NCBI GenBank assembly: GCA_018240435.1
Contig: JAFEFT010000009.1
Span: 52,222 to 116,221 of the forward strand
Origin: Pseudomonadota bacterium
Lineage (GTDB): Bacteria; Pseudomonadota; Gammaproteobacteria; Xanthomonadales; Xanthomonadaceae
Direction of reading: 5' to 3'
Length of the DNA: 64,000 bases
Made by a program: the position numbers and the translations under genes. Under the pieces are notes generated by a model that saw nothing but the letters and a program-made list of their open reading frames with translations, was not told the DNA's origin and searched no databases. Positions within the stretch are counted from its first letter, which is position 1; the number at the start of each line of letters is the position of its first letter. Of the stretch, positions 9,388 through 17,743 are shown piece after piece.

Positions 9388-9735
9388 CGCGGGAGTGTAA
9401 TGGCGCAGGGAGCAGACAAGGCAAGAAGCATTGGACATCAAGATGACGCCCGGAATGCAGTACGATCCCTCGTCGGTGGCGGTTCCGTCCGGTGGTGTCG
9501 GGCAGTCCGATCGTGGTTCGACAGGCTCACCACGAACGGCTGGCTCACCGCGAGCGGTTGGCTCATCACGAACGGCTGGCTCACCGCGAGCGGTTGGCTC
9601 ATCACGAACCGTTGGCTCACCACGAATGACGAGTTCACCGCGCATGACGGGCTCACCGCGAGTGGTTGTTGCACCACGAATGATTCGTCGGCGTGAGCGC
9701 CTTGTCGCCTTTTTCCCGTCTGCCTGCCCCGCCCC
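9388..9735. repeat. Intergenic stretch with degenerate tandem copies of a REP-like repeat (about 9513-9695)
   Basis: This 348-bp gap holds no credible gene. From about 9513 it starts with the family unit GGTTCGACAGGCTCACCACG and then runs through roughly eight degenerate units alternating CTCACCGCGAGCGGTTGG and CTCATCACGAACGG-like segments with a period near 18-20 bp. Five of the early units form a near-perfect 38-bp higher-order repeat. The same 24-bp family appears as inverted pairs or direct copies at 21.4, 34.6 and 59.2 kb. Here it has expanded into a local tandem array. Confidence 0.7.
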
Positions 9736-10310: not shown

Positions 10311-12146
<1,836 letters not shown>

Positions 12147-12445: not shown

Positions 12446-12767
12446 GGGCCTATAGCTCAATGGTCAGAGCAGGGGACTCATCGAAAGGTGCCGCTGCGGC
12501 GAAAGCCGCGGACGGGAACGGGATGAATTCAGGGAAACCGCAGCGGCGGCATCGCGCGATGCCGGACGGTGGCGATCCTGAGCCAAGCCGGCGGTGCACC
12601 GCCGGAAGGTGCAGAGACTACCTGAGGGCTTCAGCGCCCTTGATCACAGGCTCGAGCGTCCCGCACCCTACCAGCGCAAGCTGCGGGTGAAGAGATAGTC
12701 CGCGCCGGCCGGAAACGACCGGGAAACGCGAATCCCTTGGTTCCAGGTTCGAGTCCTGGTGGGCCCA
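12446..12767 (+). tRNA. ileX: tRNA-Ile2 (CAU anticodon) interrupted by an intron
   Basis: The 5' exon (12446-12481, GGGCCTATAGCTCAATGG...) and the 3' exon (12731-12767, AATCCCTTGGTTCCAGG...TGGGCCCA) join to a 73-nt tRNA. The acceptor stem is GGGCCTA/TGGGCCC, the D arm carries AGCTCAATGGTCAGAGC, the anticodon stem is GGGGA/TCCCT with loop CTCATAA, and the T arm is CCAGGTTCGAGTCCTGG. The anticodon CAT and the resemblance to minor isoleucine tRNAs (GACTCATAATC) identify the species whose C34 is modified to lysidine so that it reads AUA codons. The interruption lies after anticodon position 36. CCA is not encoded. Confidence 0.9.
12482..12730 (+). ncRNA. Group I self-splicing intron in the tRNA-Ile(CAU) anticodon loop
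   Basis: A 249-nt insert with no open frame. Group I core signatures are present: the R element GGTGCAGAGACTA (12608-12620), the S element AAGAGATAGTCC (12690-12701) that pairs with it as P7 (GACTA/TAGTC), a Q-like GATCCTGAGCCAAGC, and a terminal G at 12730. P1 can form between the exon end CAT (U at the splice site) and the internal guide GTG (12488-12490), giving the expected U.G wobble. Site, P1 and size class match the IC3-type intron of the Azoarcus tRNA-Ile(CAU). Subgroup assignment is inference from this resemblance. Confidence 0.88.
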
Positions 12768-12791
12768 GATCCATCGCCAACCACGCCTGAC

Positions 12792-14186
12792 ATGTCCCGC
12801 ATCGAGAACCGCACCTTCGATGAGTTGCGCATCGGCGACAGCGCCAGCCTGGCGCGCACGCTGGCGCGCGAGGACATCGAGCTGTTCGCGGCGATGTCCG
12901 GTGATGTCAACCCGGCGCACGTCGACGAGGCGTTCGCCCGCGACGATCTGTTCCACCACGTGGTCGCGCACGGCATGTGGGGCGGCGCGCTGATCTCGAC
13001 CGTGCTCGGCACGCAACTACCCGGCCCGGGCACCATCTATCTCGGTCAGTCGTTGCAATTCCGGCGGCCGGTGGCGATCGGCGACGTGGTGACGGTGACG
13101 GTGACGGTGAGCGCGCTGGAGGCGGCGCGCCATCGCGCGACGCTGGCCTGTTCGGTGCGCAACCAGCGCGGCGAGGACGTCATCACCGGCACCGCCGAGG
13201 TGATCGTGCCGACGACCAAGGTCTCGCGCGAGCGCATCGAGCCGCCCGCCGTCGAACTGCATCACGATGGCCGGCGCCACCGCGAGCTGCTCACGCGTGT
13301 CGCCGACGCGGCACCGGTGCGCACGGCGATCGTCCATCCGGTGGACGAAGCCAGCCTCGCCGGCGCCCTGGCCGCGGCGCGCGCCGGGCTGATCGTGCCG
13401 GTGCTGGTCGGCCCGGAACGGCGTATCCGCGCCGCCGCCCGGCGCGCCAGCCTCGATCTGGGCGATTGCGAGCTGATCGCCACCGAGCACAGCCATGCCG
13501 CCGCCGCGCACGCCGTGGCGCTGGCGCGCGCCGGCCAGGTCGGGGCGCTGATGAAGGGCGCCTTGCATACCGACGAATTGATGGCGGCGGTGGTCGACCG
13601 CGACGCGGGCCTGCGCACCGATCGTCGCATCAGCCATGTATTCGTGATCGACGTGCCGACCTATCCGCGCCTGCTGTTCGTCACCGATGCCGCGGTGAAC
13701 ATCCAGCCCGATCTGGATGCCAAGCGCGACATCGCGCAAAACGCGATCGATCTGGCCCGCGCCCTGGGCGTTGCCGAGCCGAGGCTGGCGATCCTGGCGG
13801 CGGTGGAGACGGTCAACGCCGGGATGCGCTCCACCCTCGATGCCGCCGCGTTGTGCAAGATGGCCGAGCGCGGCCAGATCAGCGGCGGCATCCTCGACGG
13901 CCCGCTCGCCTTCGACAATGCCGTCTCCGAACAGGCCGCTCGCGCCAAAGGCATCGCCTCGGCGGTTGCCGGCCGCGCCGACATCCTGCTGGTGCCCGAT
14001 CTGGAGGCCGGCAACATCCTCGCCAAACAGCTCGAATACCTCGCGCACGCGCAGGTGGCCGGCATCGTGCTCGGGGCGCGAGTGCCGATCGTGCTCACCA
14101 GCCGCGCCGACGGCACCGACGCGCGACTGATCTCGTGCGCGATCGCGCAGGCGCTGCGGCATCAGCCACGACCGCCGAAGCCGTGA
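12792..14186 (+). CDS. Bifunctional MaoC-like dehydratase / phosphate acetyl(butyryl)transferase
   Basis: A 464-residue fusion. Residues about 10-150 are a MaoC (R-specific enoyl-CoA hydratase) hot-dog domain: AMSGDVNPAHVDEAFA is the hydratase signature with its Asp/His pair, followed by VVAHGMWGGALIS. Residues about 165-460 are a phosphotransacetylase domain with LVGPERRIRAAA, GALMKGALHTDELM, DAAVNIQPDL and DGPLAFDNAVS. Annotated relatives are called bifunctional enoyl-CoA hydratase/phosphate acetyltransferase. The gene overlaps the acetate kinase start by GTGA, so acyl-CoA to acyl-phosphate to acid plus ATP could run in two coupled steps. The true acyl substrate (acetyl, butyryl or longer) is unknown. 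Start ATG 12792 lies 24 bp after the tRNA end. Confidence 0.88.
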   Translation: MSRIENRTFDELRIGDSASLARTLAREDIELFAAMSGDVNPAHVDEAFARDDLFHHVVAHGMWGGALISTVLGTQLPGPGTIYLGQSLQFRRPVAIGDVVTVTVTVSALEAARHRATLACSVRNQRGEDVITGTAEVIVPTTKVSRERIEPPAVELHHDGRRHRELLTRVADAAPVRTAIVHPVDEASLAGALAAARAGLIVPVLVGPERRIRAAARRASLDLGDCELIATEHSHAAAAHAVALARAGQVGALMKGALHTDELMAAVVDRDAGLRTDRRISHVFVIDVPTYPRLLFVTDAAVNIQPDLDAKRDIAQNAIDLARALGVAEPRLAILAAVETVNAGMRSTLDAAALCKMAERGQISGGILDGPLAFDNAVSEQAARAKGIASAVAGRADILLVPDLEAGNILAKQLEYLAHAQVAGIVLGARVPIVLTSRADGTDARLISCAIAQALRHQPRPPKP

Positions 14187-16802: not shown

Positions 16803-17107
16803 TTCGGGAATCGGGAATCGAGAATCGGGAATCGAGAATCGGGAATCGGGAATCGAGAATCGGGAGCGGAAAACCACAGGGAGTCTCGAGCCCCTCTCCC
16901 ACCGGGAGAGGGGTTGGGGTGAGGGGCCGGGCTCGCGACAAGCACCCGCGTACCGCAACTTCCGTCCCTTCGGGGCGCCCCTCTTTCCGCAGGGACAGGG
17001 ACAAGCAAAGCAGTGCCCCGCTCGCCGTCGACAGTTCACCGAAAACCGATCACCGTCTGTCTTCTGTCCTCTGTCCTCTGTCCTCTGTCCTCTGTCCTCT
17101 GTCCTCT
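16803..17107. repeat. Intergenic heptamer repeats: GGGAATC-type (16806-16872) and TCCTCTG-type (17055-17108)
   Basis: The 305-bp gap is made of repeats. Directly after the oxidase stop come about nine units alternating GGGAATC and GAGAATC. A short hairpin follows at 16892-16914 (CCCCTCTCCC/GGGAGAGGGG), which is a recurrent element in this window. The segment from 17055 carries seven near-perfect GTCCTCT heptamers. Both heptamer families recur at other loci. No gene is visible inside. Confidence 0.85.
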
Positions 17108-17743
17108 GTGCCCGCACCCACCCGCCGCCTCGCCACCCTGCTCACGCAGATCCGCGCCTGCCGGGTTTGCGAAGCACACCTGCCGCTGGGGCCGAATCCA
17201 GTCGTGCGCGCCGGCGTCGGCGCGCGAGTGCTGATCGTCGGGCAAGCACCGGGGACGAAGGTGCATGCCACCGGCATTCCGTGGAACGATGCCAGCGGCG
17301 ATCGCCTGCGGCAGTGGCTGGCGATCGACCGCGATACGTTCTACGACGAACAGCAGGTCGCCATCGTGCCGATGGGCTTTTGCTACCCCGGCCGCGGCCA
17401 TGGCGGCGACCTGCCGCCACGGCCGGAATGCGCGCCGCTGTGGCATCCGCAACTCATCCCGCTGCTGACCCGGGTGCGGCTGGTGCTGCTGATCGGCCGC
17501 TACGCGCAGGTCGGCTACCTCGGCAAGTCGCAGCGCGGGTCGCTCACCGAAACCGTGCGCGCCGCGCACGACTATCTGCCGCGCTACTTGCCACTGCCGC
17601 ATCCAAGCCCGCGCAACCAGATGTGGCTGCGCCGGCATCCGTGGTTCGAGCGCGACATCCTGCCGTTGCTGCGCGAGCGCGTGGCGGCGGCGCTCGCCGA
17701 TGCATCCACGCCGACGTCAACGCGCGAAAAAAAGCCCCGCTGA
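17108..17743 (+). CDS. Uracil-DNA glycosylase family protein
   Basis: A 211-residue UDG-superfamily protein. RACRVCEAHLPLGPNPVV is the N-terminal Cys-containing segment, GQAPGTKVHATGIPWND is the catalytic motif-1 region (GQAPG), and LPLPHPSPRNQMWLRRHPWFE is the motif-2 histidine loop. Relatives are described as uracil-DNA glycosylase superfamily proteins; whether this one excises uracil is not shown. The best in-frame start is GTG 17108, formed by the last heptamer of the TCCTCTG repeat. No ATG is available in frame nearby. The 3' end overlaps convergent pgpA by 27 bp. Confidence 0.8.
   Translation: MPAPTRRLATLLTQIRACRVCEAHLPLGPNPVVRAGVGARVLIVGQAPGTKVHATGIPWNDASGDRLRQWLAIDRDTFYDEQQVAIVPMGFCYPGRGHGGDLPPRPECAPLWHPQLIPLLTRVRLVLLIGRYAQVGYLGKSQRGSLTETVRAAHDYLPRYLPLPHPSPRNQMWLRRHPWFERDILPLLRERVAAALADASTPTSTREKKPR

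Follow-up and report, generated by a model that had tools for sequence, protein, structure and literature searches.

Among the closest described systems is the group IC3 intron in the pre-tRNA-Ile of Azoarcus sp. BH72 (PMC3984707, PMC6274277). Its target is the anticodon triplet CAU and its guide is, by implication, GUG (PMC6274277). The tRNAscan-SE 2.0 paper counts 36 genomes in which genes for fMet or Ile2 tRNAs seem to be missing owing to group I introns, and it names Acidovorax and Burkholderia for an interrupted Ile2 (PMC8450103). With these three genera, introns in tRNA-Ile(CAU) are already in print. Other papers list cyanobacteria, alpha- and betaproteobacteria (PMC4033280 and PMC11408192). 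Interrupted tRNAs are already known in Gammaproteobacteria for other tRNAs: PMC4853749 gives tRNA-Arg and tRNA-Leu cases in Thiomargarita and BOGUAY, with the intron type not determined there. Finally, the group IA2 introns of IStrons bear P7.1 and P7.2 hairpins (PMC4227781).

Here, we describe a group I intron in the window, i.e. the whole 64-kb stretch of DNA analysed. It resembles the Azoarcus sp. BH72 intron in the tRNA, the target CAU, the guide GUG and the small size. It is also like the tRNA-Ile2 cases of Acidovorax and Burkholderia, where a group I intron lies in the same tRNA and gene finders miss the gene; these introns sit in Betaproteobacteria, unlike the host of the window (PMC8450103). 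As in the IStron introns there is additional pairing in the P7 domain, but the IStron introns combine two hairpins in this domain with an extended P9, whereas the window intron shows one hairpin, in two parts, and only one P9 (PMC4227781).

The interrupted tRNA gene

The tRNA-Ile(CAU) gene at 12446-12767 is interrupted 3' of anticodon base U36, between U36 and A37. The halves and the intron add up to the full length (36 + 249 + 37 = 322 bases). The locus consists of the following features:

10311-12146, + strand: rpoD (sigma-70), the upstream neighbour, from Pfam Sigma70 domains and tblastn
12446-12481, + strand: 5' half of tRNA-Ile(CAU), tRNA positions 1-36, with the same sequence as this part of the intron-free tRNA in the same-genus genome G001; cloverleaf of the joined halves
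12479-12481, + strand: anticodon CAU, which doubles as the exon strand of P1, from its pairing with the GUG guide in 35/35 aligned introns
12482-12730, + strand: group I intron, 249 nt, from the RF00028 match (54.2 bits, E 5.4e-11), with ends from the empty site
12731-12767, + strand: 3' half of the tRNA, positions 37-73, 3' CCA not encoded, from the fold of the joined halves and the G001 match
12792-14186, + strand: MaoC/phosphate acetyltransferase fusion gene, the downstream neighbour, from Pfam PF01575 and PF01515, with a homologue beside the empty site of locus L183

Open reading frames run across the 249 nt of the intron. With its intron mode off, ARAGORN detects no tRNA anywhere in the 64-kb window. 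When the halves are joined, the 73 nt give a full cloverleaf with the anticodon CAU (ARAGORN). The identical 73-nt tRNA is present intron-free in G001 (100% identity), which fixes both ends of the intron. The boundaries cannot slide, since the exon ends in T and the intron in G, while the intron starts with C and the 3' exon with A. The interruption is therefore confirmed, and the two halves 249 nt apart that the earlier note had described are exact to the base, with an empty site in G001. The intron mode of ARAGORN places the intron two bases earlier, with the anticodon CCG; this candidate was rejected, as joining its exons gives a sequence that disagrees with the uninterrupted tRNA of the sister genome, and the ends bar sliding.

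Intron-free tRNAs are found in three other genomes of the genus, with 97% (G004), 95% (G003) and 93% (G002) identity. The G004 tRNA follows rpoD (89% identity, 456 residues) and precedes the MaoC/PTA gene (73% over 464 residues), i.e. it is the same locus without the intron, between the same two neighbour genes. In many relatives, rpoD is found within the same fetched stretch as the tRNA locus.

Some further observations concern the surroundings of these genes. The tRNA-Ile(CAU) has no encoded 3' CCA (window 12767-12770), whereas the other distinct tRNAs detected, 41 of 41, encode it; among the interrupted tRNAs of an early, stricter extraction the CCA is encoded in 81 of 100. Upstream of the true tRNA-Ile(CAU), tRNA-like copies are seen at L176 (in G001, same genus), L182 (G030, three copies) and L179 (G071). 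They resemble tRNA-Ile(CAU) over most of the length, up to about position 69, and each continues into a tail of about 100 nt with its end near CCATGGACGG. The predicted tail folds are alike in G030 and G071 (two hairpins inside an outer stem) and different in G001, and Rfam reports tRNA alone on these copies. A sequence pattern locates such copies in 2 of 119 family genomes, the window's own genome being without them, and a regular expression designed to gather more found no further copies. The window also contains 18/36-base units in tandem at 9524-9661 and nearby arrays of 7-base repeats at 16804-16865 (TCGGGAA) and 17056-17109 (TCTGTCC).

Group I identity and core fold

RF00028 matches positions 12469-12722 over its full length (model 1-253) with 54.2 bits and an E-value of 5.4e-11, above its gathering cut-off of 50 bits. 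This is the covariance search that the earlier note had proposed as a check. The match is the only one at gathering score for any Rfam family in the 64-kb window, and a second group I intron was not found in the genome at E up to 1. The core elements, from the sequence and an alignment of 35 introns (35 of the 60 nearest listed), are:

12488-12490, + strand: internal guide sequence GUG, with the U.G wobble at the 5' splice site, from sequence and alignment
12519-12523, + strand: P3 5' strand CGGGA, partner 12659-12663, from the fold of the alignment and sequence
12616-12620, + strand: P7 5' strand GACUA (R element), complementary to 12696-12700
12659-12663, + strand: P3 3' strand UCCCG, from the fold of the alignment and sequence
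12696-12700, + strand: P7 3' strand UAGUC (S element), complementary to 12616-12620

P1 is formed by C34-A35-U36 with GUG, and is closed by the pair C12482-G12487 over a GAAA loop. The four P1 pairs are identical in 35/35 aligned introns, partly by selection, as the extraction required CTCAT and a GTG. The last base of the intron is G in the window, and a terminal G is present in 100/100 extracted introns, most of which come from a pattern requiring it and one of which (L158) was wrongly cut. Compensatory changes occur at 22 of the 63 predicted pairs of the alignment. P3 and P7 are invariant there, with P7 outside the nested fold, and without covariation they neither back nor oppose the fold.

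The window intron has the P3-P9 core, in which the R and S elements pair. The elements that the earlier note had named were all found: GACUA and UAGUC are complementary, and the CAU/GUG P1, the U.G pair at the splice site and the terminal G are in place. Its interpretation as a group I intron is supported.

Predicted splicing and lysidine formation

The RNA probably excises itself, as suggested by conservation, and we infer from the anatomy of the intron, established group I chemistry and Azoarcus that splicing probably has two steps. In the precursor, P1 would arise from pairing between the guide GUG and the anticodon CAU. Guanosine from outside would attack 3' of U36, and the freed U36 would then attack 3' of the terminal G, so that the halves join into a normal anticodon loop, CUCAUAA. 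CCA addition would come next, followed by TilS, which would convert C34 to lysidine so that the tRNA reads AUA. Lysidine formation should come after splicing, because C34 would be paired in P1 in the precursor; the earlier note had put this order more firmly, as a necessity.

The interrupted tRNA is not one of the methionine tRNAs, as the other CAU tRNAs in the genome are one elongator and one initiator tRNA-Met. It carries C4-G69 and C5-G68, which we take to be the identity pairs of TilS, and it presumably resembles E. coli tRNA-Ile2; on these two grounds it is assigned to the lysidine type (tRNA-Ile2). A tilS gene is present in the genome (TIGR02432, 166.9 bits, cut-off 93.6). Together with the presumed identity pairs, this supports the earlier suggestion that the intron interrupts a tRNA depending on lysidine.

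Copy number and reading of AUA

The genome has 45 tRNA matches, 41 of them above the cut-off, and ARAGORN on the fetched tRNA loci gives 41 distinct tRNAs. Among these 41 there is neither a tRNA-Ile(UAU) nor an intact tRNA-Ile(CAU). The uninterrupted second copy that, according to the earlier note, would have spoken against its reading was thus not found in this draft genome, which is rated 99.96% complete in 71 contigs. A missed intact copy is conceivable, because the assembly is a 71-contig draft in which tRNA-Leu(UAA), tRNA-Ile(GAU) and tRNA-Ala(UGC) are unlisted.

As separate observations, tRNA-Leu(UAA) was not found among the tRNA matches of the genome, and a pattern search for it gave 8 matches with 2 mismatches, fewer than the reversed control and none convincing. 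The unlisted tRNA-Ile(GAU) and tRNA-Ala(UGC) perhaps lie with an unassembled rRNA operon.

The draft state of the assembly and the few expected tRNAs that are unlisted also leave room for a dead tRNA copy, i.e. an intron that no longer splices, with AUA read by an unseen intact copy or a tRNA-Ile(UAU). We regard this as very improbable, as the exons are identical to the uninterrupted gene of the sister genome, the intron core is conserved across the aligned set, tilS is retained, and both Ile(UAU) and intact Ile(CAU) are absent among the 41 distinct tRNAs.

The joined tRNA was used as a query in 27 intron-bearing genomes. It has matches in 25 of them and none in G073 and G089 at the threshold used. 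An intact copy is also present in one of the 25, G027 (89% complete, 4% contaminated). A full-length match with 82% identity in G072, considered as an intact Ile copy, is actually a tRNA-Lys.

In 40 open reading frames of the window, chosen by a simple mechanical selection rule, AUA accounts for 20 of the 693 isoleucine codons. Since an intact copy was not found and tilS is present, the reading of AUA should depend on splicing; that is, it should rely on a predicted ribozyme in an apparently single-copy tRNA.

A hairpin between P7 and P3

The window intron has an additional element in its core:

12621-12650, + strand: extra hairpin between P7 and P3 (P7.1-like), an insertion relative to the RF00028 consensus, with pairing seen in relatives

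The inner helix of the hairpin is paired 4/4 in 93/93 distinct introns of the window's type, with eight strand combinations, and we therefore consider the helix real. A published account of the P7-hairpin type in tRNA-Ile was not found in a literature search of open-licence papers.

We compared introns of tRNA-Ile(CAU) from 145 loci, of which 133 were extracted and 12 missed; L158 was dropped, leaving 132 introns. The hairpin begins with the CCUG of the window's type in 99 of them. Sixteen, all betaproteobacterial, have no insert between P7 and P3, and we label them Azoarcus-like after the Azoarcus intron. The start of the insert differs in the others, namely in ten introns (nine from Planctomycetota, one from Verrucomicrobiota) and in seven from Betaproteobacteria.

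The Azoarcus intron, and IC3 introns as such, are not known to have an extra helix between P7 and P3, whereas in the window intron a hairpin of about 30 nt separates the P7 5' strand from the P3 3' strand. In the trees, the Azoarcus-like betaproteobacterial introns stand in for the Azoarcus intron itself.

In a tree of the cores with the insert removed, the 16 Azoarcus-like introns join introns of tRNA-Leu(UAA) (SH-aLRT 100), while the window's type groups with introns of tRNA-Thr and with planctomycete and other betaproteobacterial Ile introns. A single tRNA-Lys intron falls with the window's group, weakly (34) and on a long branch. Monophyly of all Ile introns is rejected (p-AU 0.005), as is that of the Azoarcus-like and window types alone (p-AU 0.005), in tests with 68 rows, including the first 30 of 92 window-type rows, and 204 columns; the base composition is unusual in three of the four Leu rows. 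The groups received their names once a first tree had been seen, and the core tree came with a warning of long branches meeting. Using the window's intron as a query, blastn retrieves 99/99 of its own type (itself included) and 0/16 of the Azoarcus-like introns.

A common lineage of the window intron and the IC3 intron of Azoarcus tRNA-Ile, with a hairpin after P7 as the sole difference, is unlikely. The shared tRNA, site, guide and small size agree with it, but the insert-free cores group apart (with Leu(UAA) on one side, and with Thr and planctomycete Ile introns on the other), both joint clades are rejected, and blastn separates the types completely. The comparison with Azoarcus made in the earlier note thus holds for the tRNA, the CAU target and the implied GUG guide and, judged by the Azoarcus-like introns, fails for the P7-P3 hairpin and the placement of the core. 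An assignment to the Azoarcus-type IC3 introns was not upheld, given the hairpin at 12621-12650 and a core set apart from the Azoarcus-like Ile introns in trees without Azoarcus itself. By these comparisons, Azoarcus matches the window intron in site and guide, but probably not in lineage.

We give even odds to the reading that at least two separate lineages of group I introns have each come to occupy the identical phosphate of tRNA-Ile(CAU) and to use the same guide GUG, making the lysidine tRNA a refuge for ribozymes. The Azoarcus-like lineage would then be that of Betaproteobacteria, and the lineage with the P7 hairpin would be that of Gammaproteobacteria, akin to the introns of tRNA-Thr and the Ile introns of Planctomycetota.

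Among class members, four loci have group I introns in the anticodon loop of other tRNAs, three in tRNA-Thr and one in tRNA-Lys (L231, L236, L239 and L242). According to a reading of the flanks, these introns too have an insert resembling a hairpin at this point of the core, between P7 and P3.

Distribution and descent

Within the family, 24 of 247 genomes, from 14 of 54 genera, have RF00028 matches, and all 24 could be extracted as tRNA-Ile(CAU) introns. Luteimonas aestuarii is one of the cultured relatives with the intron. At the class level, 53 of 369 genomes have matches. Among the 66 class matches listed, 23 are in tRNA-Ile(CAU) with both halves seen, and the window's adds one; all of these have the CCUG start of the hairpin, as read by eye from the flanks. 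The other listed matches lie in tRNA-Leu(UAA), tRNA-Thr, tRNA-Lys, tRNA-Arg and apparent tmRNA and 23S rRNA genes, with four unplaced.

Scanning named genomes with a sequence pattern turned up at least 118 stretches. The pattern had been designed to fit tRNA-Ile(CAU) and a G as the last intron base, so that the site and the 3' end are partly preselected in this set. The Ile(CAU) loci come from Gammaproteobacteria, Betaproteobacteria, Planctomycetota and Verrucomicrobiota, and from one metagenome bin labelled Actinomycetes, a label that we distrust. Some loci are one genome present in two collections.

The distances between introns correlate with those between the rpoD proteins of their hosts (Spearman 0.76, 61 distinct introns), and none of 500 permutations is as high. 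This comparison used rpoD pieces of at least 300 residues in the same stretch, which are unequal in length. On an rpoD tree with 23 rows (11 with the intron, 12 without), unrooted and with many weak forks, the presence of the intron needs seven changes. Shuffling gives no more changes than this in 184 of 500 cases (mean 7.9), so that intron presence is not clustered on this scale. The window's row belongs to a starred four-member group, the other members of which are three intron-free species. RF00028 has no match in four genomes of the same genus, under stricter filters and with G003 only 71% complete.

The intron broadly tracks its hosts over long range, and comes or goes easily over short range. 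It may have arrived recently and sideways from another genus of the family, a possibility that we hold only tentatively. The four genomes of the genus without an RF00028 match have a full-length uninterrupted tRNA, other genera have introns with as much as 91% identity over 211 nt (L208), and the seven changes on the rpoD tree agree with such an arrival. However, the intron and rpoD distances correlate overall, repeated loss would produce this pattern too, and on an unrooted tree the number of changes fits gain or loss alike. In our preferred reading, the intron belongs to the P7-hairpin type, which is common in Gammaproteobacteria, and is largely kept by descent, with repeated loss or gain.

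Discussion

The best explanation of the whole is a ribozyme in the only tRNA-Ile(CAU) gene found in the genome, which would be spliced before TilS acts, belongs to the P7-hairpin type and has mostly been kept by descent. We put the probability of this reading at about 0.93. To the introns already described it adds the patchiness within a family combined with host-like divergence, and an apparently separate P7-hairpin lineage at the Azoarcus site. It also offers a reason why tRNA-Ile2 seems to be absent from such genomes.

If there are indeed two lineages, the lysidine tRNA, which is almost always the sole copy detected in genomes with the intron, and in which C34 is fixed as C and paired with the guide before modification, would offer ribozymes a favoured refuge, and pairing with the guide would verify that C34 has not yet been modified. 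As two dissimilar introns share one site, it would become directly testable in which order splicing and lysidine formation occur, and what makes this tRNA a repeated target. For the organism, a rare but used codon, AUA, would be tied to a ribozyme in an apparently single-copy tRNA.
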